DNA of 64,000 nt from Dryococelus australis (taxonomy: Eukaryota > Arthropoda > Insecta > Phasmatodea > Phasmatidae), in assembly GCA_029891345.1 (NCBI GenBank), contig CM057003.1, positions 5,684,709-5,748,708 of the forward strand. Reading direction: 5' to 3'. Each line of letters starts with the position of its first letter. Within the stretch, counting starts at the first letter, position 1. The translations under genes were made by a program, and so were the position numbers. Below the pieces are notes generated by a model. The model searched no databases. It was given only the letters and a program-made list of their open reading frames with translations, and was not told where the DNA came from. Of the stretch, positions 10,850 through 60,261 are shown one piece after another.

Positions 10850-12083
10850 AGTGCATTCGCGGTTTGTTCATATTTTTTATTAACATCTTCGAAAAACCAC
10901 CCCAAATATGACGTGTTTAATTATTTCCTAACTATGTAATGTACCAGTAGTAGGGGTGGGCGTGTTCTATGCCACTTTTGATTAATCAGATTGTCAATTT
11001 AATATCAAAGGGTTGATAAAAAAAGGGCTAATCCTTAATCCGATAAAAAATTCTTAATCCGATTAAAAATGGAAATGGTTAAAATTATCGAAAGGGTTAA
11101 ATTTATATAAAGGGATAAATTTATTGAAAGGGTTAATTTTTGTTGTTGTACTTCTTTCTTTCTTTTTGGGTGGGGGAGGTACTACCAGGAGTTCTGGTAC
11201 GTCCTCACCCTTGGAGCTCTGGCACTCGATTGACCAGAGTGGTGGGTTGCAATGTCTTATATAGGCGTAGAGTTGAGTGCAAGAGTGGGCTTAGGCCATT
11301 CTTAGAAATCGTTTAAACACTCTGAATTTCTCCCGTGTGTTAAATACATTCGTCAAAATCGTCTGTCTACCACCAACATCCCTACAAACGCCTCAAAATG
11401 ACAAAAATTAGAAGAAAAAGTCTTAGCCCACTCTTGCACTCAACTCTAGACCTATATAAGACATTGCAACACACAACTCTGGTCTATCGACTGCCAGAGC
11501 TCCAAGGGCGAGGAAGTGCCAGAGCTCCTGCTACCCCCTCCCCCCACCTAAAATAAATAAAGAAAGAAGTACAGCAACAAAAAATTAACCCTTTCAAAAA
11601 TTTAACCCTTTACATAAATCTAGCTATTTTAATAAATTTAACCCTTTCCATTTTTCATCGGATTAAGAATTCTTATCGGATTAAAATAGAATTAAGGATC
11701 AACCCTTTTTTGATTAACCCTTTGATATAAAAATTGATAATCCGATTAATCAAAAGTGGCCTAAAACCCGCCCGCCCCTACTAATTGTCTCATAATTTAA
11801 TACTTCTGCTAACTCAAAAATGTCTTATTTTTGATTAAATGAAACATTTACCTATATGTTGCCTATAAATTATAACACTTCTTATATATTTAATATGAAT
11901 AGAAAAGGGATAATAATCGCAATGCCCAATAAGAAATAGTTCATATGTAAAATAATATTTGATTGCGCGAACGAACACGATGCGCTGCCCTTTGATGTAA
12001 TATTGTAGACTTGGCGGAGGCATATCCTGAAAGTAGAACTTGAGCAGGACTTTAGAAAATTTGGACGTAACCGTGAATGGACC
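10850..12083 (+). mobile_element. Family B MITE copy 2, split by a fold-back element
   Basis: The left part (10850-10946, AGTGCATTCGCGGTTT then CCCCAAATATGACGTGTTTAA) and the right part (11786-12083, ending GTAACCGTGAATGGACCATA) together make one family B element. The 839-bp fold-back element lies between them at the place where other B copies read straight through (CTAAATATG then TATCACAAACG). The insertion therefore came after family B was in place. Confidence 0.8.
10947..11785. mobile_element. Miniature fold-back element (small relative of the 36778 palindrome)
   Basis: The left half (10947 to about 11300) and right half (about 11410 to 11785) are inverted copies of about 350 bp, starting AGTAGTAGGGGTGGGCG and ending CGGGCGGGGGCCCCTA-like in reverse (CCCGCCCCTACTAAT). 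Each arm has repeated GGGTTAAATTTAT blocks, a paired GGAGCTCTGGCAC box and GAGTTGAGTGCAAGAGTGGGC. The loop is about 110 bp. The ends and subterminal blocks match the giant element at 36778-47501, including GTTTAAACACTCTGAATTTCTC near the loop. Flanks TGTACC and TGTCTC may be a decayed 6-bp target duplication. There is no coding capacity. Confidence 0.9.
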
Positions 12084-24166: not shown

Positions 24167-24250
24167 CATGGAAGCGTTGACATTGTTTTCTAAAAATCAT
24201 GATGTGGCGGCGCGCGTCTCCCAGGCCAAGAATCAAACCGAGAGTTTATA

Positions 24251-24660
24251 TAGGCAGTTCACAATAAAGTGAGCACTTTTGAAATGAACCTTAGAAAAAT
24301 GCCACTGCCGCCTGGCTGCACATATTTTAACGGGCGCACTGAGTGACACGCACCCGGTAAAGTTGGTGACAGTGGATGGAAAATAGTTACATATGTTAAC
24401 ATCGAATAAAAAGTGTTAGGTAACCATTCGTAATCATTTAAATTATTTCTTAGTCTTTCTATTTTTTAAAACACCTTATTGTGTAAAAATTTGCAGAGTT
24501 ATAAAATGTTTACTTTTCTAATAATTTCACGGTTTCGCTTGACCGACACTTGAATAAATTGATGAGGCCTATGGCAATGTTAATTTTACATAAGGTGGAA
24601 GAATACACAACGTGCATACAAGTAAGATCTAAAAGTGCTCATTTGATCGTGAACAGCGTA
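24251..24660 (-). mobile_element. Family A MITE copy 6, full length
   Basis: TATAGGCAGTTCACAATAAAG on the left and GATCGTGAACAGCGTATA on the right, with TA on both sides. Confidence 0.9.
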
Positions 24661-25009
24661 TAGTGCCGTGCTCCAGCTGGCGGGCGGGCTGTAATCTGGA
24701 CGATGGTCGCGTGTGCAGCGATCGACCGTCTGGCGTCATATTCTCGCCGTGGAAATGTCACGTGGCTCTAGCTGCAAATAACCCTCGGCCGGCGACATTG
24801 CAGGATCGCCTCCTGACCCCGCGACACGTCGGCGAGGGAGGTAGGTCACTCCCCGCACAAAGGACTTCCGACAACCTAGCGGCGTTCTGCCATCTCTCAC
24901 CCGGCGTGGAATTGCCGCGGCAAAGTGTGCCAATGACACTTGTAGTTTTGTTTCGAGGCGGATCTCCGGAATCATTTGCGAAAGATTCTTCCCAGCCCCT
25001 GAGAAAGAG
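24661..25009. other. CpG-rich single-copy-looking block
   Basis: High CpG (for example CGTCGGCGAGG, CTAGCGGCGTTC) and no match to the repeats in this window. Frames on both strands (24663-25190, 24736-25116) run into the SINE and are not credible. Confidence 0.4.
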
Positions 25010-25988
25010 GAACAGATGGGTGGGTGAGTGGAGAGATTTGGAGTTCTTGGAGGCCGATGTGGGTGTAGTGAGGTCGGTATGGAGCAGCGCCGGTACACTG
25101 TTAAAAAATCCTTCATTTTACGGAAAAGTGCTGGTAAAATTTTATCCAGAAGTGTCCCGTAAACTCTCCGTAAAATTGCGTATACATTAGTTTACAGAAA
25201 CGGACTTTCCGTATATTCAATAGAACCTCTCCGGTAATTTCCAAGTCAGTTTTCTATACTTTCCGTTTAAAATATAATAAGGGATAGTGAAAATATCTTT
25301 GATTTTCGTTATGGAGTGTTCTACCGTGTATAAAAATGATATTAACAAAGTTAAAATATTTTGTACTTAAGCGAGGTTTGAAACCGAGTCATAAAACTTC
25401 CAGTCTACGACTCTACCATTCACCTATAACTCTCACTTTAGAATAATGGTATTACTTTTGTATCTCTATTAAAAATACGAAAGAAAAAAATTAAGTTCAT
25501 ATTAAATTTAGTGTATTTTTAGTGTTGCCAAATGCTACAGACGCCTGATGATATTTTTTAATGTTTGAAAGAATAGGCCATAGTCGCGTGGATAACCTTA
25601 ACTGCCGTGGAAACGATAATTTTCTTGTTACAGTGGCTAAGAAAGCTTCGTGTAGAATCGGCATTGTTCGTCCCCGTAACTCGAAGGCAAAGTGAATACG
25701 GAGACTTTCCGTATTTTGTATTTACGGACTTAACTCCGTTTTTCGTCATTACGGATTGCCTTTCCGAATATACACTGTACATTTCCGTAAAACATTCCGT
25801 ATGTATACACACATTTTTAAGTGTATTAAACGGCGGGGGAAACGGGAGATCCCCGAGAAGACCTGCCGATCAGCAACATCTTTCAGCACGATTCCCACTT
25901 GCGAAAATCCGGAGTGAACCGGACGGGGATAGAGCCCGGTCTACCTTGTTGGGAGGCGAGCAGTCTAACCGCTCAGCCACCGCGGCCC
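25010..25988 (-). mobile_element. tRNA-derived SINE split by a later DNA transposon
   Basis: The 3' part lies at 25010-25093 (GGAGAGATTTGGAG to GAGCAGCGCCGG) and the 5' part at 25826-25988 (GGGAAACGGGAGATCCCC to CCACCGCGGCCC). The two join exactly at the GCGCCGG/AATGAAA position of other SINE copies. Box A (CGCTCAGCCACCGC on the plus strand) and box B are kept. Confidence 0.85.
25096..25823. mobile_element. DNA transposon nested in the SINE, TA target site
   Basis: It begins CACTGTTAAAAAATCC after TA (25094-25095) and ends TTTTTAAGTG before TA (25824-25825). Further in, both ends share TTTTACGGAAA. The interior is dotted with TTTCCGTA/TACGGA in both orientations. It is 728 bp, with no transposase detected. 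The superfamily is uncertain; a TA target is compatible with Tc1/mariner-like or related enzymes. Confidence 0.75.
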
Positions 25989-26129
25989 ACAACTCGCAAA
26001 TACTTTTGGGACCTCCACTTATCAGTGTTAGTGTTGCTACGTCCAACGAACACATTATTACCCAAAATAACACTGAATTTATTGGTCACCACAAAAGTAT
26101 TTTTGTGTTTTCTACCAAATACTAACTAT

Positions 26130-26549
26130 AGGCTATTCACGGTAAAATTACCACTTTTGAAAGCCCTGCTTAAGGTCTAGTTGAATGGACGTTGTGTATT
26201 ATTCCACCTTATGTAAAATTAACGTTTCCATGGGCCTCATCTCTTTATTCATGCGTCGGTCAAGTGAAACTATGAAATTATCAAGAAAGTAAATACTTTT
26301 AAAACCTGCTTATTTTTACACTTCTATGCATTAAAAAAAACAGAACGTGAAAGAAATAATATTAATTTATCACAAATGGTTACCTAACACTTTTTATTCG
26401 ACGTTAAAACATGAAACTACTTTCCAGATATCGTTACCAACTTTACTAAGCGAATGTCACTCAGTGCATCCGTTAAATTATATGCAGGCAGGAGCAGTGA
26501 CTTTTTTCCCCAAGGTTCTTCTTAAGTGGTCACTTTATTGTGAACATCA
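26130..26549 (+). mobile_element. Family A MITE copy 7
   Basis: CTATAGGCTATTCACGGTAAAAT at the left, GGTCACTTTATTGTGAACAT at the right. The TTTTTATTCGACGTTAAAAC core is conserved. Confidence 0.9.
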
Positions 26550-26998
26550 TTTACTTCGTTGGTGCCGTGAAATCTTTTGTGGGTTCAATATTGACAGAAT
26601 AATTTTGTAGTCGCACAAATTGTTTTATTAAGTGTTGTGTCATTAGTGAATGGTGCTCTTGATACATAGGCTCTTCCTTCACACTAGACGCGGTTTTCTG
26701 TTGTGTACAGGGCTGACTGTGGCACAATGCTGCGAGATGCAGGGAACTATGACTGGAAAGAGTGGAGTGTCTCTTCATCGCAGAGGCAGAGGCCGTGTTC
26801 CAATTCGTTTCGAGTTTCGTCATTTATATCTAGCATTTCGTAATGTTTAGTTGGTGCACCACCACACTGTATCGTTGAATATGCCAGCAACCATGATTTC
26901 GGTCTTATAATGATACGAAAATAAAAAGTACATCAACTAATATTATTCCAGAAAGTTGCAAGGGTACCGTATAAAATTAATGAATAAGAAAATATAAC
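26550..26998. other. Unannotated DNA without gene
   Basis: A minus frame at 26551-26823 has no recognisable motif, and part of it runs into the family A end. Confidence 0.4.
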
Positions 26999-28565: not shown

Positions 28566-28943
28566 ATTAAAAATACAATAATTAGTCGCACGAGTAGCCT
28601 GCACCGTCTGGTCGCTCCTGAAAGCCCAACACAAAGAGGATTTAAGCATTTATTTAAACATCTGCGAGGTGAGCAAGAATTGTAACGAGTCCGTGATAAA
28701 TGAGCGCCCCTCGTAAAATAGATTGCTCATAAAGCTAAGTGCTAAAACCCACGGCGTGTAGAACACGCTGATAGGTTGACAGGGCGCCACATCCTCGGAG
28801 GTAGCTAGGCGAAAGGCCTACTCGGCGGGGCTAATGTTTCTCGTGAGTACTCTGCGAAGTATTAACGAAAACATAATTTATACTAGAGCGTCTATGCTGT
28901 ATACATCAGGCTTTTACTCTGCTGAATTTATAATTTCGTATGT
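28566..28943. other. No gene seen
   Basis: Nothing supportable. Confidence 0.5.
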
Positions 28944-29358
28944 AGGCTGTTGACTGTAAACTGAGCACTTTTGAAAGCCCTGATTAAGATCTACTTGTAT
29001 ACACGTGTGTTCTTCTGCCACGTGTAAAATTAACACAGTCAAGGACCTCATCGCCATATTAATGCGTTGGTCAAGTGAAACTACGAAAGAATTAGAAAAG
29101 TAAATATTTTTCTAATATGCTCATTCATACACTTAGAACCATTAGAAAAACAGAAGGCGAAATATATATTTTAAGTTTACACAAAAGTTTACCTAACACT
29201 CTTAATTCGACGTTAAGACATGGAACTACCTCCCCTCCATCGTTGAAATGTACTCGGCATATGTCACTCAGTGAGCTTGTTTTAATTATATGCAAGTAGG
29301 AGCAGTAACGTTTCTCCAAGGTTGATTTCAAAAGTGCTCACGTTATCGCGAACAGTCT
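28944..29358 (+). mobile_element. Family A MITE copy 8
   Basis: AGGCTGTTGACTGTAAACTGAG at the left, GTTATCGCGAACAGTCT at the right. Full length with moderate divergence. Confidence 0.85.
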
Positions 29359-30060
29359 TTTCCGACGGCCTACGGGGATATTACGTATGCTTCTTTAGAA
29401 TGTCAACATTACGCGTCCCTTTGTTTTAGCTTAGTACAACAAATTACGAACTCACAAAACAAGGTAAACTACCGCAAGTTGTGACGCCATTAAATATTTC
29501 TACTTTGATGGAGATCGTACCCTCCAAGAACACTTTATTTGCTGCAACACATGATTAGTTGCCGCAAATAAAGCGATGAATAATTACGAACCTCTGTAAA
29601 GTAGGTTTCCTCCAAACATAATTTTTGTTTGGTCTGGAATTGAATGACTATGAATACCTTGCATTGTCGCTACAATAAGAGTTAGTTGGGCGTGAAGTCT
29701 TTGTGGTAATGTCAGTTGCGCTGTAAAGAAAATTTGTGCTCTGAAAAACATCCTTGGTTAGTAATGAAGAGAGAAAAAACGAAACTTTCACAATTATAGC
29801 CACTAAAATAATAATTATAATAGCTCCGAGCGTCCCCCTTGTTTATAGCCTAACTTCTGTTCGGAAGAATTGAGATTAGTGACTTGGAGAATCCCTACAA
29901 TTCAGTCAAATATTAAGTGTCTGTAGGAGAACTGCACATTTGCTCAGTTGCTGAATATGCTTATTGGTTTATGAATGTTTGTGCCGGAGCAGCAGTTATG
30001 TATGGAAAACTACGATGCACGACAGTGATGTTTATATCCCTCAGCCATTACCTTTGGTCA
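29359..30060. other. AT-rich DNA without gene
   Basis: Nothing supportable. Confidence 0.5.
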
Positions 30061-31557: not shown

Positions 31558-31888
31558 ATACTAGGGATCCCCCCTTAAGAACTCCATGCTTGAGTTCTCC
31601 GGCTTAACCGTCGGGAAGGGGGGGGGGGGGGTAAGGCGACTTCCCTCGTGCGCTGATTGAACGCGCGGCCCGGGGGTCACGCTGTGATTGACTTCCCGCT
31701 GTGACTTCTAATTGGGCGGAAGGATCTGGGATTACAGCTCTGCGGGTAATTGACGTGGTCGGAGTGCGGCTTCGCCGTGGAATCGGCTGTCCGCTCCGCA
31801 GATGCATCCCCCCTCCCCCCCCCTCCCGGTTCAAACTCCACGGACAATAGGCCTACGTCGTTTTTTCCGGCCTTCGCAGGTTTCTTAT
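31558..31888. other. GC-rich block without repeat match
   Basis: Bounded by a G run at about 31620 and C runs near 31810. Between them are CpG-rich sequence and several TGATTGA/TAATTG motifs. The apparent minus ORF (31604-31834) is read through the homopolymers and is not credible. Confidence 0.4.
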
Positions 31889-32310
31889 AGGCGGTTCACG
31901 GTATAATCAGCACTTTTGAAAGCCCTGCTTATGATCTACTTGACCGCACATTGAGTATTCTTCGGCCTTATGTAAAATTAACACTGTCATGGGCCTCATC
32001 ACTTTATCCATGCGTCGATCCAGTGAAAATGCGAAATTATAAGAAAAGTGCACATTTTACAAACATGTTAATTTTTACACTTCGATGCATTAAAATAACA
32101 GAAAGCAAAATAAATAATTTAAATTATCACAAATTGTCACCTAACACTTTTTATTCGACGTCAAGATATGGAACTACTTTCCATCCACCGTTACCAACAT
32201 TACTGTGCGCATATCACTCAGAGCGCTCGTTGCAGTATATGCAGGTATAGGAGTAGTAACATTATTCTAAGGTTGAATTCAAAACTGCTCACTTTATCGC
32301 GAAGAGTCTT
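31889..32310 (+). mobile_element. Family A MITE copy 10, full length
   Basis: AGGCGGTTCACGGTATAATCAG at the left, CACTTTATCGCGAAGAGTCT at the right. It directly abuts the piggyBac-type end at 32312. Confidence 0.9.
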
Positions 32311-32311
32311 T

Positions 32312-32911
32312 AGACCCTTTCAGTCCCGAATTAATTTACGAACTCGAGTGTTGCAATCGTTTAGTTTTTGATGGGCGCTGTTATCGTGTCGACCTTGCTT
32401 CTTGCAACAATTGAACTAGGCACTGAGCGTTCGTTGAAGTTAGCGTTAACCAATCATCATGATGATAGGTGCAGAACCTTCAACCAGTCACGTTACTCGA
32501 AAGGAAGAGGCTTAAACAGCGACAACCGTAAGTATCCTTCAGTAAAAATATCCAGCCTTGGGGATTATGACCCCGAGGAAACACAAAAAAATATAAGCGG
32601 CCGAAAAGCATTTTTGCTTACAGGCCGCCATAACGTCCCTAAACTATCCCAGTATGTCGCGTGATAATTCCCACCAACACATACAATTATGCGAAGCACT
32701 ATGTGAACACAGAAAAAGGCAAAGCAGGCTCTGTACAGCTTCTGGCTCGGAAATGGCCCTGTGCTATACATTGCAAAATTTGTTTTCTATGCTACACTGC
32801 GTGCACACCCGAGTGTCAGCATCGCGGGATCCAACCTGGAGTTCGGTCTGGTGTAGGTCTGTGCGTTGACCCTATACACCTGCCAACACTACACACAACA
32901 CAACACTAGCT
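32312..32911 (+). pseudogene. piggyBac-type relic: left end plus C-terminal coding remnant
   Basis: At 32312 GACCCTTTCAGTCCCGAATTAATTTACG matches the left end of the TTAA-flanked MITE at 6912. Downstream, broken plus-strand frames carry pieces that resemble the C-terminal cysteine-rich domain of piggyBac transposases, which binds the element ends: LTGRHNVPKL near 32620, RLCTASG near 32725, and VGLCVDPIHLPTLHT near 32850-32895 (the family typically ends its domain with LCV-PCF--YHT). Two frame changes lie between them. I infer an internally deleted piggyBac copy whose catalytic DDD region is gone. The end match and the GLCVDP-type motif support each other, but each alone is modest. Confidence 0.45.
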
Positions 32912-33531: not shown

Positions 33532-33745
33532 AAAAAATCCTTCAGTAGCAATATGTCTTCGATCATGGACAAGGGGAATGAATTGGTTAAGACCTCCTCC
33601 TACCTGGCGTTTTTTTTCTTCTGTGTTTGAGTCCGATAAGTGAGGGAACGTTAAGGACGACATTGCCGCGCTCATCGAGCGCTCCATCGCCGTTGAGCGC
33701 AAGGCTCTGAACTGACGTGCAGTGTTGTAGTCGCACTGCGTGTAT

Positions 33746-34168
33746 AGGCTGTTCACGGTAAAGCGAGCTCTTTTGAAAACCCTGTTTAGTATTTACTTGT
33801 AGCACGTTGTGTGTTAACCTGCCTTATGTAAACTTAACATAGCCATGGGCCTCATCATTTTGTTCATGCGTCGGTCAAGACAAACTGTGAAATTATTAGA
33901 AAAGTAAATATATTACAAATCTGCTCATTTTTACACTTCCAATGCATTAAAAAAACAATAGAAGTCGAAATATATAATTTAAGTTATCACATTTAGTTAC
34001 CTAACACTTTTTATTCTACGCTAAGATATGGAACTACTTTCCATCCCGTGTTACCAACTTTACTGGACGCATGTGACCCAGTACACCCGTTAAAATACAT
34101 GCATGCAGTGACAGTGATTTCTTTTGTAAGGTTCATTTCAAAAGTGCTCACTTTTTCGTGAACAGCCT
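33746..34168 (+). mobile_element. Family A MITE copy 11, full length
   Basis: GTATAGGCTGTTCACGGTAAAG at the left, CACTTTTTCGTGAACAGCCT at the right. Confidence 0.9.
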
Positions 34169-34230
34169 TTACCTACAGAACTTTCAGCGGTGACTCTATT
34201 ATTTAATTGGGGGCAAATCTGTAGCAATAG

Positions 34231-35311: not shown

Positions 35312-36777
35312 ATAATCACTAAAGCTGCTGCCAAGAAAATTACCTATGTCAAGTACGGGCATTAAAAATACAGTGAATTTTTATTGTATAATGCACTGGA
35401 CAAAATAAGTGAAATGTTACTGAATTCGAAAGGATCTAAACGAATTTGTTTTGAAATTTAGACTAAATACATTTATGGTAGTTCGTTAGTGCACACTACA
35501 GCCTAGTAGACAAGAAGGAAAGGAGATAAGCAAAGCGTTCATAGCAGGAACTAGGTCGCCGGTTGTAAGTTAACATGGCGTTCTCCGATAAGGTTTAATC
35601 AATAAGTGGATAAAGCAAACTACTGATTACAGCTTACACCTAAACTTTATTAAACGCCACTTGAAGTACAAGACGCGAAAAATTCGTTTCAATAACGTTC
35701 ATATTATATTCATAGTTTGCTACTGATGTACTCAACTGTGCATACGTTGCAAAATCATTCAGTTTGAAAAAATCCCCAATAGACTCCCCAAATCACCACC
35801 AGATAATCCTGGAGCTTACTGTGGAGCAAGTGTAATTTGGATAACAGTTACTTATACCCAAGGTGTTCCCAAACGACTTTTAACTGGAACTTACAGTGTT
35901 AATGTAGCACCACAGAGGGTTTTTCCTTCACTACGGGGAAAAGAAAATAGAATTGTAGTATTACAAAATAAAGTCTTGCTGCTTATACAGTTGACCATTG
36001 TGCAACATCTATACCGTTTTGTCTCTGATATAAATAGGTCTATGGCTTATATTTCTAAGCTTGTAACCACATTTACACAAGCGTGAGAGTTAAATAACTA
36101 TATTTCAGTTGTACTTTTTCTTACTATCGACCATAGTAAATGAATTGTACTTTTAGTAAACTACTTAGACAAGCGTAGTTTATGATAAATTAGTAAATAT
36201 GGTTAAAATAATTAATTAATATGCGTTCTGTGATGACAGCAGAGTGATTACCGCAGACCTGTAGTCGAATTTAAGGTGATTTTGATAAAATATCACATTA
36301 ATATCATACTGTGATAAAGCTCGCAGACAAAATAACAAAAAGAGCAGAGGCCATGGAAACACTAACACTGAATGTTTTATTTTTCTGAATTAAAAAATGA
36401 TATATATGAAGCGTACTTTCAACACTTCAGTTAATTACGCCTCAATTCATTTACAAAAAAAAATTTGAACTTTTGATTTGCATACACGACGCATTCAACG
36501 ACTCACTTAAAAATACGAAGCATTAATTACAATATACCAGTTCGCGAATAAGAAAAAATCAAGACTTGTTTTTAAAGTAACATATATATTTTTCGGCGTA
36601 TTAGGTGGAATACTTTGAGTTACGCCTGAAATCGTGAAAACAAGACACAAAAGTGTAAAAGAAAGTGAAATTGGTTCTATTTGAAAACAGTTGCATCTTT
36701 CTGGTCATTGCGGTGGCTGAATAAAACTGATTTATATGTTCACTTTGTGGGGTTGTAAAATAGCTGACCTACTTGTG
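35312..36777. other. AT-rich DNA without gene
   Basis: No ORF, island or repeat that I can support. It ends at the left edge of the giant palindrome. Confidence 0.5.
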
Positions 36778-39117
36778 AATAGTAGAGGCGTGCGGATTAT
36801 GAAACAAAGGGGATGCCGCCTATTTTGATTGACATAATTAATTTAATATCAACTTGATTGAAAGTGTTAAGTAAATATATTTAAAGGGGCAATTAAAATG
36901 GAATGGGTTGATTAAACGAAACGGGTAAAATTTATTGAAAGGGTTAAATTTAATTTAATGGTTAAATGTATTGAAAGGGTTAATTTTCTTATGTTTGTGT
37001 TTGGTGCAAGAGAGTACGAAGTGTCAATTTTAATATTTTCTTTATTTTTTTTTTGTTGTGGGGACCAGGAGATCTGGTACAACTTCACCCTGTGAGCTCC
37101 AGCACATGACTGAGGTGTGGCATGTTGGAACAAGGTATAAATATGAAGAGTTTAGTGCAAGAGTGGTCTAAATGTATTTTTTTTTGTTTGGTAGTGATCT
37201 TGCTCATATATGGTGTTGCTACATAGGCGACTTTGAATGTAGGCACTATTCCAAATGAATAACAACATTGCACAGGAGAAATTCAGAGAGTTTAAATGAG
37301 TTATATATATGATTAAATAACACAAGCGAGAGAATTATAGCGAACGAACACAACTACATGAGTGTCAGTATGGAAATAACGATCTACAGCAAAATGTCCC
37401 TATAAAATAAACAAACACAATAACAAGATATATGACACTACCTGACGCCTCTCGCACATACCTTACACGTCTGTCTGCCTGTGATTTTGTGAGGAGGAAT
37501 TTTAGAAATGTAATACTTATGTAAAAATAAATTAATTGATTAACATGTGTAATGAAATTACACCTCTTTCAAAATGTGTCTGTCATTCATCTAGTCCAAG
37601 CTTCTATGAGCAACTGAAGATGGCAGCCACTGGATACAGGGGTGCAGAAGGCTCCTGACCTCCCTCACCCATCGCCAGAGCATGCTACTCTGTCATGAGG
37701 TTACTCATCCGTCTGCCCTAGATTGTCAATTTTTTGGCAATGTAACAAAATGGCAACGACTGCCTACATAAGGCCACATCGCTCCCGAACTCCCTGCACC
37801 CCTACCTAACACCATGCCTCCCAAGAGCGATGTACCATGAGGTCAAGAACCCAGACCATCCCTCCCACCCCACCAACACAGAGTTCGTTTTCGCCCAAAA
37901 AATCAGTATCTTCTCCAAGGCCAATCACACCCAGCCCTTGTCAATGACCGCATCTTCGGCAATCAGTACCCTCCCCTCCTAACCCCTCCAATGCAGATCT
38001 CATTTTTGTTGTTTCCAAAGCTCCGGGACATGCACCCTAGTATCGATCTAACAGTGCAAGAATCTGTTTAATGGCAAACACCCCTCTCCACCCACACTAC
38101 CCAAGAACTGTCTCTTCCAATGCAGCGCTTCAGAAAACTCATTCTCCTCATGGTCAGAAAGGGTTTTATCAGTTGACTGCCCTTGTCCACGGAGGGCACT
38201 ATCGATTCAAGGTCACATTCTACCCCCTCCCCTTACAGCACTCAAGTGACATGTCTTTCGAATATCTCGGGAACTGGCTCATCGTGGAGGTCTGGTCCTT
38301 CATCCCCAGAGTGCTACCTTGGCTATAAATGGAGGTTTGCTTCAAGGTCATAGTGATGGTTTCCCTAGGGAGGTTCAGTGGATTTTGAAATGACCTGGGC
38401 TATTCGCCTCCTCCCTACAAACTGTGACTTTGACTTGGAGACTGAAGCTTCCTTACATTACTCGAGGCACAAGAGGTTTACATATTCCCAGCTAAATAAA
38501 ATTTTGCTACCATACTCCTGCCAATAAAACTTTATTTTACCTCATCACTAAGAATTGCGTTCCAATTGTCAACACACAATAAATTCAATTCAAAAATATA
38601 TTAAGTTTTACAGCAAACTTTATTCCTGTTTATAGCAACTATTATTCCCGCTTTTCCAACAACTTTTAACTAATAAATGATTCATTTTTATACCGACACA
38701 GCTATAAGACAATTTTTTTGCAAGTAATATCAAACATGCATCTTTATTCAATTTTTTACTATTACAATGTAAGCAAATACCCTAGTTAAACTTTACTTTT
38801 CAAACATTAAAAACATATGTTAAACTTGTTCGATGAGTCTTATACTTCCAATCTCTTTTTCTAAAAATATGTTATGTGTAGTTTTCTCATGTTTGGATTT
38901 CTACCATAATATATATATAATATATATATAATTACATATTTTTGTCCCTAGAAAATATATATCGATGTGATATTACTGAAATAATATGATTCTAGCTTGA
39001 AATGACTGTTATTGGAGCTGAAATTCGTTAAATTTCACTATATTTCAACTTATTTACCTAAAAGGGCAAATTTAGCTTAAATTTAAAGGACAATGGCAGT
39101 CATTTTGTGTCCATATA

Positions 39118-39127
39118 TTATATAAGG
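39118..39127 (+). promoter_or_regulatory. TATA box, left arm
   Basis: TTATATAAGG lies 57 bases before the left-arm reading frame and is mirrored at 43421-43430 in the right arm. Conservation in both arms supports a real core promoter. Confidence 0.6.
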
Positions 39128-39174
39128 AGGGTAAATTTTTTCTCAGTGTTAACTCGGCATTTGCTAAGGTCACT

Positions 39175-40700
39175 TTGTGTGCACATGCGTGCATGTGCAT
39201 AGCATTAGGACTAGCAAACCTTATTGCATTTACTACAATGCCAGGCATCCACTACAACTCCAGGCAGCAATCACATTTACTACAGCTCCAGATGTCCAAT
39301 ACAATGGCAGGTGTCTACAACAACTTGAACATACATCATCTAGATCTACAAGAGATTTCATTTCTCCATCAGGTCGCAATAGGTACAATGCATCAAGGTT
39401 ACTGTTGTGGCAATTGTGACTCAGAATGTGTTGAAATGTTCAACGCTATTTTAGCTTACGAGAAGGAAACAACATTATTGAGTTTAAACTGCTCCCAACT
39501 GCGAGTGTTGTTGAAATAATTTATAATTAATTTTGTGTGCCATACATTAAAACTAGTGTATCCATTACTGTCTGAACATTTATAAGCTATTCACCATGTG
39601 ATGACTGTCCTTACAGCATGCTTGCCTTTTATAATGATGGAAACTTGCATCATATGTGAAGGGAATGTATGTCATCCAGGCTGGAACAGCTACTTGACAC
39701 TAGAATCATTCCAGATGTTGTAATGGACGATTCAGGCATTGATGAAGTTGATTCCGAGGCAAGGACTGTCAACTCTTAAAATTTATATGAGAGAGACTTT
39801 TTGTAAATAGTGTATAAAGAAATTTACGTTAAAAAAATGTGCTATGCTCAGGGTTTCGAAAACTACCAAGACAACTCCTTTGTAATAAAGGGGCTTGCAA
39901 TTTCTTATGCAACCAACACTAATGGCACTAAAGTATCATACTTTAAATCTCCCAGACCTTGGTATAGTTTAAAACCTGAAGTTAAAATAATGTTCCAGAA
40001 CAGACTTACGAGATACATAACCTGAAATGGGAGTCTGGTGACATAGCTTCCGAAAAACATTTTCAATGTGTAAATGATGCGCTACTTGAAGACTATCCCA
40101 TATATGTGCTTAGAAAAATCCTGAAGGAAACTAAAAAAAAGCTTTATCCAATGCAGAAGTAATAAATATCAGAAGATACCATGACTCTTCGAGTATTAAT
40201 TCAAATGTCAAATGCTATAATACTAATCACTGTGAACAAAAAAAACATGCTGCTCACAAAGTAAAAGCAAAGCTTTACGAGAATATCTGTACTATCATCC
40301 TACCTGTGTGTAGTGAGAGATATTAATTTTTCGAAAAAAAAAGGTTTGTTCCAGGTATTGTAAGATTTTGAAAAAATGGAGAAATTCGACCCAGACAAGA
40401 TGTATTCCAGTATTTTTTGAGGACACCAGAAAGTATAGTTCCAGTATGTAGGCAATATATACTTTTAAACACAGATGTGTAACAGAGATGAACATTGGAA
40501 TATCGCAGAAAGTTTTGGAGAAAGCATGTATACAGAACAAGTGTTGTGTGATGAAGAAGACTACTGTATTTTATATATGGCCTGACAGCAAGCTACCCTG
40601 TTCTTCTTGGGACCTATGTTTTAAAAATCGAAGTGTAGAAATAACCAAAGAACCAGGTTTTCAACTAATAAAATATAAATTGATTAGAGAATTTTAAAAC
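39175..40700 (+). pseudogene. Left-arm copy of the palindrome's protein gene, decayed
   Basis: Unrecognised protein. Blocks in order: CAHACMCIALGL (39180), HQGYCCGNCDSECVEMFNAIL (39390-39450), LEQLLDTRIIPDVV (39675-39720), NYQDNSFVIKGLAISYAT (39855-39910), EQTYEIHNLKWESGDIAS (about 40000-40060), VNDALLEDYP (40070-40100), and a CSSWDLCF segment (40600-40630). They fall in different frames with stops between, so the copy is dead as it stands; introns could explain some breaks. Every block has a counterpart in the right arm. The cysteines in CCGNCDSEC hint at a metal site. No domain that I know fits, and the copy stops at the loop. Confidence 0.55.
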
Positions 40701-40889
40701 ACATCCACCTTATGGACTGAAACATGAAATAATAAGGAACACATCATGCAAATACAAGGCAGTAGTGCACTTCTATGAGCTCCATGTTGAATGTGGGACT
40801 GTGAAGTTTGGAACAACATTGTTTGTGTCAGTAAATTTGATATAACAAAGGTGTTGTTTTACCATAAACTGGGAAAACTTGCTTCAATA

Positions 40890-41860
40890 TAAATTTGTTA
40901 TGTATTTTCTTAATATTTAATCCAGGTCCCCTTCTTGACCTCTCCTTTCAAGGAGGGAGCATTTCTTATGCCCTGGTTTTAACCTATCTGATGCACACAA
41001 ATGTATTTATGTGTAGGGGCATGCAAAACAATGCTTTCTACCTAACCATAATATGATTCAACATAATGAGAGTACACATATTCAATACTATATGGAAGAG
41101 GTGTGGTTGCAGTTATATAAAACACTGGCCATTTCTTGTTGTCACCACACTGTATGAGTTTGTGACTCTTTTCATCCCCAAGAGAAAAATATATTACTTT
41201 AAAGTGAAAAATATTATCTCAAGTCTCCATTAATTCTCGAAAAAGTCTGTTGCACCATAGGGCATAAGTTAAATTGGACTTTCCTTGTTTTACACTGGCA
41301 TAATGATTTGCACAAAAAAATACCTTATGTTGCTACTATGACATCCAACACTCAACTGAGAACAAAAACTGAGAAGAATTAGCAAGGAACAATGTATGTA
41401 TATTGATAAATTATTTCTCTCTAAATTTGCAAGAGAAGTTAATTCTTAGTCACAGATGTATGTATAATGTTGCTTGTAGTTGCATTGTTCTGTCCAAACA
41501 CTACTTTTAGAGTAATACTCCCTTCACAACTTATATTTAATTTTACTAAATTTTGGATGTTAGTGAATTCTTCACCTTCCATATACCATACTAATTTAGT
41601 TAAAACTAATCACCAGATCTGCATCAAGTCTTAAATTATAGACTACACACTTGTGTCCAATGCAATCTGCAACTTCTTTGTACTTACATTCAGGACTGAT
41701 TATTGAAAAACTTCAATGTTCATCTCCGTTGCACATCTGTATCTGTAGTGGACTATCTTCATCTTCAATTCTAAACCACACTTGCCCATATCCTGGAGTA
41801 ACACTAGCGTACTGAAGTGGAGTCAAGCCTCTCCATCATACCTGAAGCTGTGGTGTACAA
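40890..41860. other. Loop of the palindrome
   Basis: No inverted partner. The right-arm gene runs into it from the right (to about 41600, minus strand). The rest is AT-rich and non-coding. Confidence 0.7.
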
Positions 41861-43394
41861 TTTTCTCTTTATATAGTAGCATGTTCTTCCACCTCTTCAA
41901 AGACAACATTGTTATATCAAATTTGCTGACACAAACAATGCTGTTCCAAACATGACAGTCCCACATTCCACATGGTGTTCGCAGAAGTCTGCTACTGCTT
42001 TGTATCTGTATGATGTGTTGCTTATTATTAAATGTTTCAATCCATAAGGTGGAGGTGTCATAAAATTCTCTGAACAATTTATATTTTATTTGATGAAGAC
42101 CTGGTTCTTGGGTTATTTCTAAACTGTGATTATTAAAACATAGGTCCCAAGAAGAACAGGGTAGTTCGCTGTGAGGCCACATATTAAAAACAAGACAGTC
42201 TTCTTCTTCATCACACAATACTTGTTCTGTATGCATGCTTTCTTCGCAACTTTTGCGAAATTACATGTTCACCTCTGTTACACATCTGTGTTTGAAAGTA
42301 TACATTGCCTAGAGACTGGAACCATACTTTCTTGTGTCCTCCAAAAATACTGAAATACATCTTCTCTGGGTCGAATTTCTCAATTTTTTCGAAGACTTAC
42401 ATACCTGGATAGTCTTCGAGTAGCTCATCATTTACATATTGAACATGTTTTTGTAAGCTATGTCACCAGACTCCCATTTCAGTTTATATAACTCACAAGT
42501 CTGTTCCCGGAACATCATTTTAACTTCAGGTTTTAAACTGTACCAAGGTCTGGGAGATTAGAGTCATTACTGTCGGTTGCATAAGAAATAGCAAGCCCCT
42601 TTATTACAAAGGAGTTGACTTGGTAGTTTTCGAAACCCTGAGCATAGCACATCATTTCTTATGTAAATTTATTTATACACTATTTACAAAATGTCTCTCT
42701 AATATAAATTTTATAAGATGACAGTGCTTGCCTCGGAATCTACTTCATCGACTCCTGAATTGTCAATTACAACATCTGGAATGATTCTAGTTTCAATTAG
42801 CTGTTCCAGCCTGCGCGACATACAATCCTTCCGCATATGTTGCAAGTTCCCATTATTAGGAAAGACATGTATGCCATAAGGTCAGTCATTGCATGGCAAA
42901 TAGAATACATTATCCTTTTCAGCTTGTAAATGTTCATCAAGGAACGGATACACAAGATTTAATTTGTGACCTGCAAAAGAAATTATGAATTCTTTTGGCA
43001 GCACTCGCAGTTGGGAGCAGTCTAAACTAAATAATGTTTTCGCCTTCCCATAACCTAAAATCGCATTGAACTTTTCAACACATTCAGAGTCACAATTGTC
43101 ACAGCAGGTACCTTGATGCATTGTACCTGTTGGGAGCTTATACAGAGATGAAATAATTTGTATATTTTAGATGATGTATGTTCAAGTTGTTGTATGCACA
43201 TGTTGTATTGGATGTCTGGAGCTGTAGTAAATGTGATGGCTGCCTGGAGTTGTAGTGGATGCCTGTTTTAGTGGATACCTGATGTTGTAATACATGTATG
43301 GCATCAGAGTAAATGCCCTAAGTCTCACTAGTGCTAATGCTATGCACATGCATGCATATGCACACAAAGTGCCCTTAGCAGATGCCAAGTTCAC
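41600..43394 (-). pseudogene. Right-arm copy of the palindrome's protein gene, extends into loop
   Basis: The minus-strand gene mirrors the left arm: CAYACMCIALAL near 43350, HQGTCCDNCDSECVEKFNAIL with ECS QLRVLPKEF-like continuation (42882-43121), the ETRIIPDVV block near 42790, NYQVNSFVIKGLAISYAT near 42620, KLKWESGDIAYK near 42470, ELLEDYP near 42420. A 137-codon ATG frame follows (41823-42236, with LPCSSWDLCF). Past the arm boundary the coding trace goes on into the loop (VTPGYGQVWFRIEDEDS, then CVVYNLRLDADLVISF, ending about 41600). Inside it a motif repeats: KVWFQ...QTQMCNRGEH near 42310 and QVWFR...QIQMCNGDEH near 41740. Frame shifts remain, so it is probably inactive. This is the only copy with a 3' end. 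Function unknown; a transposase is the obvious guess, with no catalytic motif identified. Confidence 0.55.
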
Positions 43395-43420
43395 ACTGAG
43401 AAAGAATTTAATTTATCCCT

Positions 43421-43430
43421 CCTTATATAG
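43421..43430 (-). promoter_or_regulatory. TATA box, right arm
   Basis: CTATATAAGG on the minus strand, the mirror of 39118-39127, about 30 bases before the region that aligns with the left-arm gene start. Confidence 0.6.
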
Positions 43431-43968
43431 TAAATGGATACAAAATGGCTGCTATTTTCCTTCAAATTTAGGTTAAATTTGCCCGTTTAGATAAATCAGT
43501 TGAAATATCACGAAATCTAACAGATTTCAGCTCCAATAGCAGCCATTTCAAGCTGGAATCGTATTATTTTAGCAATATCATGTCGATATTTATTTTCTAG
43601 AGACAAGAATTTGAACATATGTATATGCATTATATGGCAGAAATTCAAAAGTGGAAAAACTACACATAACATATTTTTAGAAAACACATTGAAAGTATAA
43701 GACTTATCGAACAAGTCTGTTTAATGTACGATTTAAATGTTTGAAAAATAAAGCTTAACATGAGTATTTGCTTACATCATATTATTTAAAAATTGAATAA
43801 AGATGTGTGTTTGTAATACTTACATAAATATTTCTAATGGTTGTGGTGGTATGAAAATTAATCATTTATTAGTAATAAGTTGTTGAAAAAATGGCAGTAT
43901 TGTTTGCTGGAAATGGGAGTAAAGTTTGCTGTAAAAGGAATATATGTTTTAATTGAATTTATTGTGTG

Positions 43969-45165
43969 TCGAAGACAGTTACAGTGGACCTCTTGGTCAT
44001 GTATTTTGTATTTTAACGCAGCCTTCTTAGCCTTATGAGCTTACCCCGCTTCGGCCTCCCAATAGGCAGTGGAGAGGAATCACATCCTCTCAGTGCAAGA
44101 AGGCCTGGATTAATGCGACTGGTGGTCAGATCCGATGCCCAAACCTGGCATGTCCACACTTCCTCGCCCCCTATACCATAGAGGTTCTGAGATCCTCGCA
44201 CTCAGAAACAAAATGTGTCATCTGCCGGGGTTCTATCCATACCCCTAGGGCCTTTCCAGGGCACAACCAGACCATGACCTCATAGTGGGGCCGACTGATC
44301 ATCCTGTGCTACCACTCAATTTCCATGACACTTATGGGTTATTCATGGCCGACATTATCCCCCCGAATGGAGTGGCAAGAGGAATTCCCTTCCACACAGA
44401 GGTTGAGAGGACCTCTCTGGGCATTACCTTACACCCACTGAAGGGCTGGCCACACTCCTCTCCCTGGGAGCCACATCCTTAGTGGCAGGGAATTACTATG
44501 ACCCAGAATGGCCACCACCCCGGCGGCCGGACACAAGAGAGCAGTAAGGACCCCTCCTGGGTGTGCAGTTCACCGGGGAAAGTAGCCCTTGCTCTGAAAT
44601 GGAGAGTGTATATCGTATATAGTTGTGTATTCTTCACAGTTTCATCACTGCAGCTAAGCCATTGCTCCCTCGACCACCATGGTATTATGTGACCAATTCT
44701 CAGTTTGAGGAAGGGGGGCATTGACCACACTCCATTCCATGTCTTTGTACTTCTTATTTGAAGTACAGACTTTGGTCCCCAACAGGCTGAGTGCTAAGTG
44801 GTCCAACACCCCGCCAAGTGGTCGAACCTTGGTACCAGCTATTGGTCCAACCATCATGGCAGATACCCCTCGCCAGTCATGAGGAGTCTGGCAACCCACA
44901 GGGAATGGGCGGCATTGCCCGATCTGTTAAGCGACTACCAGGGGTGGCCCAGGAAGCCTTGGGTCACCTTGAATGGAGAGAGGCTATAAAAGATTGTGTG
45001 TGGTGTATACCTAGCTTGGCATACTAAAGCAAAGTACTGCTACACTGCCTATCATGCCCGTGACCTTCCTCCTGTCTACTAAACCCCAGGGATTTCAAAT
45101 CCTGAATAATGCTTCACCCAGGACATACACAACCCTACCCCCATGTGTTGGAGACAATTGGAACA
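43969..45165. mobile_element. 1.2-kb insertion present only in the right arm
   Basis: In the left arm the sequence reads straight across this point (about 38570, AATTGTCAACACACAATAAA). Here TTATTGTGTGTCGAAGACA is followed by 1.2 kb of GC-richer DNA, then GGAGACAATTGG. AGACA at both joints may be a 5-bp target duplication. Short frames in several phases have no recognisable domain, and no terminal inverted repeat was found. Confidence 0.6.
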
Positions 45166-45992
45166 TATTTCTTAGTGGTGAGGAAAAATAAAATTATATT
45201 GGCGGGAGTTTGGTAGCAAAATTTTATTTTGCTGGGATTATGCCAACCTCTTGCACTTCGAAATATGGGAGGAAGCTTCAATCTCCAAGTGGAAATAACA
45301 GTTTGCAGGAAGAGGGGAAATAGCCCAGGTCAGTTCAAAATCCGCTGCTAGGGAAACTGTCGCTTTGACCTTGAAGCAAGCCTCCATTCATAGCCGAGGC
45401 AGCACTCTGAGGGTGAAGGGCCAGACATCTGTGGATCAGCCAATTCTAAAAATATCCGAAAAATGCACCTCTTGAGTGCTGTAAAGGGAAAGTGTAGTGC
45501 ATTGCCTTGAATCGACAGGACAGGGGCAGCCAACAAAAAAAACACTTTCTGACCTGGAGGAGGGCAGGTTTTGCGAAGCGCCATGTTGGAAGGTCCAGTT
45601 CTTGGGTGGTGTAGGTAGAGGGGGTTTTTGCCACTAAACAGGTTCTTGCAGTGTTGGATTGACACCAGGGTGCGTGTCCCGGTGCTTTGGCAACAGCAAA
45701 AACGAACTCTGCATTGGAGAGGTGGAAGGGATTTCCTGGGTTCTTAACCTCTGAGGGGTGGAGGTGGTAGGTGGGGGTGCATGGAGGTCGGGAGCGATGT
45801 GGCTGTATCTAGCCAGTCGTCGATATCGTGGTACATTGCCGAAAAAAATGACAATAGAGGGCAGAGGGATGAGTAACCTCAAGGACAGAGTAGCATGTTC
45901 TGGCGAGGGTTGGGGGAGGTCAGGAGCCATCTACACCCCTGTATCCAGTCGCTGCCATCTTCAGTTGCTCATAGAAGCTTGGACTAGATGAA

Positions 45993-46707
45993 TGTGTACC
46001 TCAATAGCGCCTTTATATACACCGAACTTCGGAGTGTGATAGCTGCGATTCTTGTTAAGCGATATTATATGCTCCGGGGTTCAGGTCTCGTTCACAGTCT
46101 TTAATTTATCATGCGATAGTGCATTTATCGCGTAAACCCCATTTCTGTGTTCAGTAGACGAAACTTCGTAGCATTTTCAACTCGTGTTTTTTTACTACCA
46201 AATGCCGTGAATTTGACAGACTTAATGGGAAAAAAAAATAATTTGTCATACGTCCGTTATTTTTAAATAATTCACTTTTATACATTCACGTACTTGTAGG
46301 ACGAATCGAGTCGTTTATAGTAGCTTTGTAAGGAAATAGGTTGTGTCAGTAATACATTTAAACTCAGCCACGCTCAATTTAACAACTTATAAGCAGGCGC
46401 ACATCATACGACCCAGTCACTCATCGAATGACCTCCAAGGTGGATGGATGTGTTTTCGGTGAGCTGCTGGTGCCATTTCACTATGTGTATTTCTATTGTG
46501 TCTGTTTAAAATTCAACTAGTCTAATTTATATATTAGTATGTATGTCGTAAGTATAAATCTTATCCATTTGTCATGCTAATCGTATGCACATCTATTTCC
46601 GAGTAGCTATAACCTTAGTCACTTGTCAGTCTCCGAACGCACTCCACAAATATATAATCAGGCTCTCGATGTAAGATCGCTTCATTCCTTCACCAGCCTT
46701 CGAGCTA
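45993..46707. other. Second segment found only in the right arm
   Basis: The left arm joins CATTCATCTAG directly to GACAGACACATTTT (37585), while the right arm has about 715 bp between the matching points. Insertion here or deletion in the left arm are equally possible. There is no ORF and no clear duplication at the joints. Confidence 0.55.
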
Positions 46708-47507
46708 GACAGACGTGTTTTGTGAGAGGTGCGATTTCATTATGTGTGTTAATAAATAAATTTATTTTTACATGTGGATTATGTTTTTAAAGTTCCTTCT
46801 TACCAGTCACACAGGCAGGTACGGGCTAGAGGCGTCAAGACTTGTCATATATCTTGTAATTGTGTTTGTTTAATTTTTAGGGACATTTTGTTTTAGATCA
46901 CTATTTCCATACTGCGCACTCATGTAGTTGTGTTCATTCGACATCTTTCTCTCTCTCTCTTGTGTTATATAATCATACCTAGAACTCATTTAAACATTCT
47001 GAATTTCTCTCGTGCAACACTGTTATTCATTTGGAATAATACAGACATTCAAAGTCGCCAATGTAAAAAAAACTGTATATGAGCAAGGTCACTACCAAAC
47101 CCAAAAAAAATATTCTTAGACCACTCTTGTACAAAACTCTATACATATATATACCCTGTCCCAACATGCCACACCTCAACCGTGTGCTGGAGCTTACAGG
47201 GTGAGTATGTACCAGGGCTCCTGCTCCCCACAACAAAAAAAATGAAGACAATAATAAAATTGACACTTGGTACACTCTTGCATCAAACACAGACCTAAAA
47301 ATTAACCCTTTCAAGGCATTTAACCGTTTCATTAAATTTAACCCTTTTGGTAAATTTAACCAGTTCTATTTAATTAGCCATTTTAGATTAACTCTTTCAA
47401 TAAATTTAAGTAACCCTTTCAACAGATTTGATATTAAATTAATTGGGTCAATAAAAAACGAGGCATTCGCTTTGTTTCAGAACCGGCACGCCCCTACTAC
47501 TCTTGTG

Positions 47508-53789: not shown

Positions 53790-54245
53790 TCGGTACCAGG
53801 TTTACTGCAAGCAGGTCTCATGTAACTTTTCTCGAGTTTTTGTTTTCAAGGTTATTCAAGGTCATGAGGTCAAGGTGAAGGTTACCTGCACTCACTATGG
53901 TTGTAGTCAGTAACACAATATACTTGACTTCTATACATTTTTCTCGAGTTTTTGTTGTCAATGTCATTCAAGGTCATGGGATAAAGGTCGACGTCACCTG
54001 CATCTAACTTGGGGGTATTAGTGTGTAACATCATATTCTTGCTGACTTTTATGTATTTTTCTCGAGTTTTGGTTTTTAAGGCCATCCAAGTTCATGGGGT
54101 CAAGGTTGAGGTCACTTACATCCAATATGGTGGTAGTAGTTTGTAACATCATATGCTTGCTGACTTTTATGGATTTTTATAGAGTTTTTGTTTTCAAGGT
54201 TATTCGAGGTCATGGGGTCAAGGTTGTCACTTGCGTTCAACATGG
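53790..54245. repeat. 118-bp tandem array with TCAAGGTCA half sites
   Basis: Four diverged units, anchored at the CTCGAGTTTTTGTTTTCAAGG block at about 53831, 53943, 54061 and 54179. Units carry TTCAAGGTCATGGGGTCAAGG followed by GTCACCTGCATCCAA and GTAACATCATATTCTTGCTG. TCAAGGTCA is the extended monomer site of FTZ-F1/ERR-type nuclear receptors; whether it is bound here is unknown. Confidence 0.85.
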
Positions 54246-55222: not shown

Positions 55223-55643
55223 TAGTCTATTCGCAATTTATTCACACTTATTTAATGAAACCTTTGAAAAATTATCCCCAAGTATGACTTAACCTACTTA
55301 GTTGTTTCCGAAATATGCCATATATCGCAAGCGTTTTATACTTATGTTCCATAAAACTTCTTATTTATTGTCTAATTTAATTTTATTTAAAATTAACCTA
55401 TAGATTATTAAATTTAATTTCTGACAAATATTATTATAAACAGAGAGAAAACATGTGTGTTGGTAATGATTAGTGAAAAATAGTTCTCATGCGAAGCATT
55501 ATTACACTGAGGGCTCACGAATGCGGTATGTTGTCCCTTTGTACAGTACATCATTTTCTAGAGCCGGTCTAGCTTTGTTTTTTTTTTTTATATCCTGGTA
55601 ATAGAACAGGGCTTCAGAAAAGTTGTAAATTGCAATGAATGGA
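55223..55643 (+). mobile_element. Family B MITE copy 4
   Basis: AGTCTATTCGCAATTTATTC at the left, TTGCAATGAATGGACT at the right. Core blocks CAAGTATGACTTAACC and GCAAGCGTTTTATACTTATG are present. A T run replaces part of the GGCGGAGG region. Confidence 0.8.
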
Positions 55644-58295: not shown

Positions 58296-59831
58296 TTAAG
58301 TGGGACTGGCCACCTCCCAAAGAAATGACATCTGTATTAATTCTTGTGTTACCAGCGCCAGAAATGTTTGACATCTTGCAAAGTGGTAGAGTGCGAGCAC
58401 ATGAAATTGTGCGGTTATTCTTCGTGATCGGGAACAGCTATAAATCATACTGGCTGTGACCAAAAAGAAAACTAGATCCTTACAAAATATTGCAGTTGGC
58501 ATTAACATAAAGTTGGTGATGCTAGTCACTCTAAGCTAATGAAGAGCGATCAGAGTGTTGCACAGAAAATGTGTAGTTTTGCAAGTGAACAACTGCCACA
58601 GAGTTTCATATAAGTTAATGACGTACCCATCTCAAGCGCCAAAATAATAATAAGACAATCTGAATTATGTTTGAAAATAGTTGACATTTTAGGAGGATTT
58701 TTACATGTCATTTGAATTGGACTGGGCATACGCTCCTTTAACAGAGGATTATTCATCTACACCTTTGTTCTGACCCTCAGAAACGGGAAGCAGAAACACA
58801 TAATATTGGTATACGTCTAGTATTGAATCAAAACTGCCAAGGATAATCGAAAGGTTTGGTGCATATGGCACTTAAAATTAGGTTAACCAGTAGCTGTATT
58901 GTAGAAAGTAATTGGCCATTCGGAAGGCTCAAAGTATTCACTGACAGAACAACTGTAGCGACTGTAAACCTGCTACTTTTCTTTAACTGTAAAAATGTAG
59001 TGTCCTGTCATGAAATAGGCCTAAAAGTATAATTAAGTGTAAATATGTGATTTGTTTTGTAATTATGAACAAAACCCCTTAGAATTTCTTTGCAAATTTG
59101 TTTAGCTGACTGAAGATGTTAATGTGGATTTCTTCGAAGGTCGTATTTCACCTTCAAAATGTAAATATTGTTTCGTTATCTCCTTTTAGAAAATAAATGA
59201 GTGACATAATCAACATATAAATAACAATTTTGTGGGTCAGTTGTTTTTCCATAAATAAGTTCATTTAAGTTAACTCGCGGCTTGTTTAAACATTATAAGC
59301 AACATTAATCACTGTAGTTTAACTACGCCACATCAGTAGCATAGTGCAAGGTGTTACGTTGGGAAGGCCCAATGTTGCAGTTCCTTGTCCAAATTAGTAA
59401 AACGGGATTCCGAAGTCCCCCCCCCCCCCAACCCAAAAAAAAAACACAAAGGAAAGTGAAGATGATGTGGAGTTTTTTTAGACTTTTGTCCATACGAAAG
59501 GCGTTTAAAAAAAAATAGACAGTACGCATTATGCGATACAGGAAAACGACTGAACATTTTAAGAGAGGGAATCCATTTACGAAAAAATGTGGTTTGGCCG
59601 CTGTGGGGCGACAAATTGAGTTCAAAATGTTTGCGGTTTTCTAAAAACGTGCAACCCATCAGCCATCGACGCGAGGCTGGTGGACTATCTGACAAGATGT
59701 CCACCCACAGGAAAAAAAACAAGGAAAAGTCAGAGAATTTCATGTGACAGGGAAAAGTCAGGGAAATGCCAGGGAATTTCCATCCGGGTCGGGGAAAATG
59801 TAAATAATTACTACTGTGTTAAAGTTGTTAT
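58296..59831. other. No gene; fragment with GTCAGGGAA repeats near 59694-59790
   Basis: A C run at about 59419 underlies spurious minus frames. From 59694, GATGTCCACCCACAGG is followed by GGAAAAGTCAGAGAA, GGAAAAGTCAGGGAAATG and CCAGGGAATTTCC, which looks like the end of a DNA transposon. Similar AAAGGTCAGGGAATTCC words occur at 60620-60645. Confidence 0.4.
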
Positions 59832-60261
59832 AGGCTATTCACTGTAAAATGAGCACTTTTGAAAGCCCTGCGTAACATCTACTTGTATGCACGTTGTGTA
59901 TTCTTCCGCCTTATGTAAAATAAACATTGCTAGTGCCTGATCACTTTTTTCATGCATCGGTCTTGTGGAACTGTGGAATTATTAGAAGAGTAAACTTTTT
60001 TTTTTTTTCTTTCAAATTTGCTCATGTTTACTCTTCGATGCATTAAAAAAAACTTAAAGCGAAACAAATAATATAAATTATCACAAATGGTTACCTAACA
60101 CTTCTTATTCGACGTTAAAATATGGAACTACTTTCCCTCCATCTTTACCAACTTTACTGGACGCGTGTCACTCAGTTCGCCTGTTAAAATATATGCAGGT
60201 AGGGGCAGTGACATTTTTCTAAGGATGATTTCAAAAGTGCTCACTTTATCATGAACAGCCT
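59832..60261 (+). mobile_element. Family A MITE copy 13, full length
   Basis: TATAGGCTATTCACTGTAAAATG at the left, CACTTTATCATGAACAGCCT at the right. All internal blocks are present, with a T run at about 60000. Confidence 0.9.

Follow-up and report, generated by a model that had tools for sequence, protein, structure and literature searches.

A 10.7-kb inverted-repeat element with Maverick-like ends in the stick insect Dryococelus australis

What kind of genetic element consists mostly of one long inverted repeat, carries gene-like sequence in both arms, and how could it have arisen? These questions are raised by a locus of the stick insect Dryococelus australis that lies in a stretch of 64,000 nucleotides (contig CM057003.1 of GenBank assembly GCA_029891345.1, positions 5,684,709 to 5,748,708 of the forward strand). 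The whole of this stretch was analysed and is called the window; all positions below refer to it. An initial annotation, made from the sequence alone, had described a fold-back element of about 10.7 kb with arms of 4.1 and 5.6 kb around a loop of about 1 kb. Comparison of the window with itself confirms this architecture: 36778-47501 is a single inverted repeat of 10,724 bp, made up of a left arm of 4,116 bp, a loop of 974 bp and a right arm of 5,634 bp (Table 1). The alignment of the two arms starts at the extreme ends and runs inward, with 83.0% identity across 3,654 aligned columns. It proceeds through ordered inverted blocks (36780-37584/47499-46708, 37584-37894/45994-45696, 37972-38576/45731-45144, 38543-40118/44001-42385 and 40350-40893/42409-41868) that are 77-85% identical, with E-values of at most 1.5e-75 and block-wise distances of 0.105 to 0.243 substitutions per site. 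The arm borders enclose 9,750 of the 10,724 bp, about 1.9 kb of the right arm being without a partner. With 7,308 paired bases (two for each aligned column), most of the element is inverted repeat, as in Foldback-type architecture. At the two ends, 33 of the first 40 bases agree; the terminal similarity noted initially is real, at a count slightly below the 34 given then.

Directly outside both ends are exact copies of CTTGTG, as the annotation had stated. The duplication is exactly 6 bp long, since the neighbouring bases differ before and after it. Given the fixed boundary and the local base composition, an exact 6-mer would occur by chance with a probability of about 4e-4. Similarity stops at the ends of the element: outer flanks of about 390 bases are no more alike than expected by chance, in either the inverted (z-score 1.2) or the direct comparison (z -0.9). 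Since there is just one duplication, lying outside both arms, the palindrome was probably inserted as a whole.

Is the element alone in having these ends? A miniature relative had been reported at 10947, and one is present, placed here at 10946-11785. Its two arms are identical at 311 of 385 positions. Two ends, the right one of the large element and the left one of the miniature, carry AGTAGTAGGGG exactly, and the other two each have one change in the first six bases. A terminal pattern common to both elements, AGTAGTAGGGGYGNGC, fits the four ends with 0, 0, 1 and 2 differences. Allowing up to three mismatches, the window contains six matches to this pattern where 1.0 is expected, and four of the six are these ends. 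A 22-base end pattern has no exact match in IMG/VR. All four arms also contain, shortly inside their ends, a tandem repeat of an 18-bp unit that can be read as GAAAGGGTTAAATTTATT. When a profile is built from the four terminal arms, it recovers its own members, as it must by construction, at E <= 1e-97, and the next match in the window has an E-value of 0.65. The miniature is another copy with the same ends, the lack of which had been named beforehand as evidence against a transposable element. Together with the matching 6-bp flanks and the shared 18-bp repeat, it bears out the earlier preference for a transposable element over a host duplication. Arm identity is 82.7% and 80.8% within the two elements and 62-64% between them (terminal arms). 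Because the arms are closer within than between elements, each palindrome appears to have formed, or to have been evened out, separately after the lineages parted.

We then asked which known group these ends resemble. Vertebrate Mavericks have the ends 5'-(AGT)2//(ACT)2-3' and 6-bp duplications, and the repetition within the end motif has been linked to jumping back during protein-primed replication (PMC8097293). For Polintons, the duplications are likewise given as 6 bp (PMC10045372). Our two elements resemble this type in their inverted terminal repeats, in the (AGT)2//(ACT)2 motif, which is exact at two of the four ends and one change away at the other two, and, for the large element, in the 6-bp duplication; the flanks of the miniature agree at only four of six positions. 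Intact vertebrate Mavericks are 12.7-24.6 kb long with terminal inverted repeats of 46-1,447 bp (PMC8097293), whereas the large element is 10.7 kb, mostly inverted repeat, and yielded no polymerase or integrase in Pfam scans. Since no core gene reaches the Pfam cut-off, we regard it as at most a non-autonomous derivative and do not class it as a Maverick proper.

Other groups share fewer of these features. Galileo, a fold-back-like element of Drosophila, has long, internally repetitive inverted ends, and its first known copies were long ends only, but it belongs to the P superfamily and makes 7-bp duplications (PMC3573991), compared with exactly 6 bp here. Mutator-like elements (MULEs) can have long terminal inverted repeats, and some carry host gene fragments; their duplications, however, are 8-10 bp (PMC5225508). 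IS3EU/GingerRoot elements do make 6-bp duplications, but their ends are TA..TA or TG..CA (PMC10045372) rather than AGTAGT/ACTACT. Ginger elements have 4-5 bp duplications and TGT ends (PMC2836005). Among the groups compared, the Maverick type appears to be the best fit. The group, which the initial annotation could not name, is narrowed by end motif and duplication length to the Maverick/Polinton type, and away from Galileo.

The annotation had also placed a coding gene in each arm. Both arms do contain gene-derived sequence, in the form of decayed fragments rather than intact genes: the copies in both arms are interrupted by stops and frame breaks. One piece matches the end of P0002, a predicted protein of D. 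australis (Table 1), a match obtained in one of three protein database searches with the arm gene. The pieces contain a tandemly repeated domain, seen as a 37-nt direct repeat spaced 549 nt (183 codons) apart. Nine single open reading frames (ORFs) and the stop-masked frames of the large element matched no other Pfam family at the cut-off either. Weaker matches to DUF7360 (E 0.15), X25_BaPul_like (0.079), APOBEC1 (0.54) and STAS (0.014) were taken as chance. Sequence searches of the PDB with the arm gene gave best E-values of 0.11 and 0.55, and IMG/VR contains no relative of a 145-residue ORF, a 94-residue ORF or the domain alignment A1. AlphaFold2, run on two single arm-gene sequences, returned models with a mean predicted local distance difference test score of 37.2 and 33.7, which were not used. 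When the aligned coding pieces of the two arms are compared, they differ at 30 first, 25 second and 49 third positions, with a ratio of nonsynonymous to synonymous substitution rates (dN/dS) of 0.47. In the two remaining frames of these stretches the ratio is 0.93 and 1.33, and six noncoding control frames range from 0.47 to 0.97, one of the six equalling the coding ratio.

Based on these observations, we suggest with moderate confidence that the locus is an old, decayed, non-autonomous element with Maverick/Polinton-type ends that was born by inverted duplication of one end of its parent. In this model, an inverted copy of a parent end, consisting of the terminal repeat and a neighbouring gene, would have been made, and the product would have been a linear palindrome able to serve for replication and integration at either end. 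Most probably this would have happened by snap-back copying during protein-primed, strand-displacement replication: a displaced strand would fold onto itself and be extended from its 3' end until the terminus was reached. An integrase acting in trans, from a full-length relative, could then have inserted the palindrome once, leaving the 6-bp CTTGTG duplication. The arms would have been near-identical at insertion and would have decayed apart since. Defective genomes of protein-primed viruses formed by snap-back have the same plan, with one end duplicated in inverted orientation and a loop that continues one arm; those are free genomes, whereas the element described here is an integrated fossil.

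Folding of a strand and copying back to its end is expected to leave a right arm that continues into the loop and a left arm that is shorter. The miniature conforms to this expectation: followed inward from the right end, its loop gives matches to both arms of the large element immediately beyond the point at which the miniature's own left arm turns (z 7.9 and 7.4, with none of 200 shuffles reaching the score, compared with 0.6 and 0.8 in the opposite orientation). By this match, the whole loop of the miniature continues the right arm, and its left arm is the shorter copy. The loop of the large element holds, in its right-hand part (approximately 41446-41867) and on the minus strand, a second, diverged copy of the arm-gene domain, oriented like the right arm. 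The best protein score of this copy is 91, compared with 34 in the opposite orientation and 48 for the best of 100 shuffles. At the nucleotide level, three stricter scorings of the large loop gave z-scores of 7.5 to 8.0 against the left arm and 3.9 to 5.3 against the right arm; under one of the three, the right-arm score was attained by one shuffle in 100. The excess, in these scorings and in the protein comparison, is limited to the right-hand part. The right arm thus runs on into this part of the loop, with the left arm as the shorter copy. Read in this way, the turning points would lie about 0.5 kb (miniature) and about 4.1 kb (large element) along the same end.

Several observations weigh against this origin. 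In the large loop, the 552 bp on the left (40894-41445) show no relation to the arms, with a score of 39 that was reached by 24 of 100 shuffles, and a nucleotide test with permissive gaps, applied to the whole loop, finds no excess (z -0.7 and -0.4, right-arm orientation). The same loop would be left by a palindrome that was perfect at first and then lost one side of its centre, an outcome not separable here from fold-back copying. No polymerase or integrase matched at the Pfam cut-off in the six stop-masked frames of both arms and the loop, a scan that ran without a positive control; the one intended, a stop-masked scan of 16000-25900 on the minus strand, gave nothing. The (AGT)2//(ACT)2 motif is documented in vertebrates, and it is with vertebrate Mavericks that these insect ends were compared. 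The flanks of the miniature, TGTACC and TGTCTC, are a weak match, at only four of six positions. Finally, divergence is lower in most of the inner, partly coding blocks (0.140, 0.105 and 0.179) than in most of the outer ones (0.217, 0.158, 0.243, 0.210 and 0.191). This difference and the excess of third-position changes hint, weakly, that the arms may have diverged partly under selection.

How else could such a locus arise? A smaller but appreciable probability attaches to a fold-back derivative of a cut-and-paste DNA transposon, from an unrecognised superfamily with 6-bp duplications, whose arms grew by abortive gap repair or by recombination as proposed for Galileo. Long inverted arms recur across unrelated transposon superfamilies (PMC3573991), and the failure to find a Maverick gene is in keeping with such an origin. 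The combination of AGTAGT//ACTACT with a 6-bp duplication is, however, a specific match to Mavericks, and the groups compared above differ either in their ends (IS3EU/GingerRoot) or in the length of their duplications (Galileo, MULEs). It is improbable that the locus formed from two copies of a one-ended element of about 5 kb, inserted side by side in opposing directions, that each lost the inner end. The left arm does leave most of the loop unmatched, and the arms differ by large insertions, as such a pair might; yet one matching outer duplication, with its low chance probability of about 4e-4, is not expected from independent insertions, and the miniature has the same palindromic plan.

The gene-like sequence in the arms, one piece of which matches a predicted stick-insect protein, would also be compatible with an inverted segmental duplication of host DNA. 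The defined terminal motif, the 6-bp duplication, the subterminal repeats and the second element with the same ends all argue against it, and we consider this origin very improbable. A palindromic artefact of assembly or reading deserves hardly any weight. Fold-back chimeras do occur in long-read data, but an artefact of that sort would give near-identical arms, whereas the arms here differ by 17% and have separate insertions, one of about 714 bp and the other of about 1,182 bp.

Inverted duplication of a Maverick-type end, the origin we favour, raises the question whether the two palindromes belong to a wider family. Repeats labelled as Maverick are the most abundant type in Timema cristinae, with 145,675 copies and 3.13% of the genome, and the third most abundant in Clitarchus hookeri (PMC5691397); such abundance in stick insects also counts in favour of a Maverick-type origin. 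One rather speculative possibility is that the family consists of palindromic Maverick satellites, that is, defective hairpin-forming genomes that arose by snap-back at differing turning points along the same end and were mobilised by helper Mavericks. If so, part of the stick-insect 'Maverick' repeat load could be such satellites, and they would be genomic footprints of real protein-primed strand displacement in Mavericks. To our knowledge, protein-primed replication of these elements has so far been deduced from their genes and ends. Nested palindromes of a single end whose loops extend one of the arms would be the scar expected of this mode of replication, and they could be counted in genome data. 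Confirmation of the family would suggest that these virus-like elements give rise to defective genomes able to integrate, which would be one way to explain why Mavericks are so numerous in stick insects. Among the titles and opening lines of abstracts listed for open-licence PMC papers, none describes a palindromic or fold-back Maverick.

Table 1. Features of the large inverted-repeat element and its miniature relative (positions in the window)
Feature	Position	Strand	Details
Left target duplication, 6 bp	36772..36777	.	CTTGTG; sequence
Left arm	36778..40893	+	4,116 bp; terminus AATAGTAGAGGCGTGC; inverted alignment to 47501-41868
Left subterminal 18-bp tandem repeat	36918..36987	+	consensus GAAAGGGTTAAATTTATT, 3.8 copies; Tandem Repeats Finder
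G+C-richer arm block	37584..38568	.	48.2% G+C; partner 45994-45153 in right arm, 48.8%
Left copy of arm gene(s), broken	39384..40757	+	39636-39767: 68% of 44 residues identical to end of D. australis P0002
Loop	40894..41867	.	974 bp
Right arm	41868..47501	-	5,634 bp; terminus read inward AGTAGTAGGGGCGTGC
Right copy of arm gene(s), broken	41868..43125	-	42848-42714: 36/45 identical to D. australis P0002
Right-arm-only stretch	43973..45154	.	about 1,182 bp; borders alignment-dependent
Right-arm-only stretch	45995..46708	.	about 714 bp; arm alignment
Right subterminal 18-bp tandem repeat	47298..47361	-	Tandem Repeats Finder
Right target duplication, 6 bp	47502..47507	.	CTTGTG; sequence
Miniature relative	10946..11785	.	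840-bp palindrome; termini AGTAGTAGGGGTGGGC and ATTAGTAGGGGCGGGC; 18-bp repeats in both arms

The arms differ in several unpaired stretches. The longer of the two found only in the right arm would be either a later insertion there or a deletion from the left arm. It contains 51.6% G+C (computed for 43970-45152) in an element that is otherwise A+T-rich, and has no further copy within the window at E <= 1e-3. The left arm has 115 bp and 255 bp without a right-arm counterpart. Next to the G+C-richer block that the arms share, the adjoining arm sequence has 33-35% G+C. The right arm also has an A+T-rich match at 55364-55491 (E 1e-7), which was set aside because the left arm gave none there. Nothing was detected in the window by Rfam at its gathering thresholds or by ARAGORN under the bacterial code.

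The rest of the window is rich in repeats. Six further loci in the window match other parts of P0002 at E <= 1e-7 and a seventh does so less strongly, so the window and D. australis have dispersed repeats in common. A repeat reading like AVRLLASHQGEPG occurs at 22.7-23.0, 25.8-26.0, 27.7-27.9, 28.3-28.5, 34.3-34.4 and 52.0-52.2 kb, and also inside P0002, which suggests that some predicted stick-insect proteins may be partly repeat DNA. A further dispersed repeat of up to about 430 bp is present in both orientations in at least 11 copies across 188-60263, pairs among the matches listed being about 75-81% alike (188-560, 984-1396, 8568-8889, 12571-12960, 17019-17440, 24249-24634, 26127-26556, 28943-29360, 31886-32312, 33743-34172 and 59829-60263). 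The inverted pair 18244-18770/32992-33534 is 89% identical and probably represents two copies of one dispersed repeat. On the minus strand, 19455-20381 is an open frame of 308 amino acids with cysteine-rich knuckles and no Pfam match; by eye, we take it to resemble the first protein of a long interspersed nuclear element. Two tandem arrays were also observed. At 53827-54226, a 118-bp unit is repeated 3.4 times, with frequent AAGGTCA-like words. At 7152-7541, six copies of a 65-bp unit form a perfect array with 100% matches, which is unusual beside the otherwise old repeats of the window.

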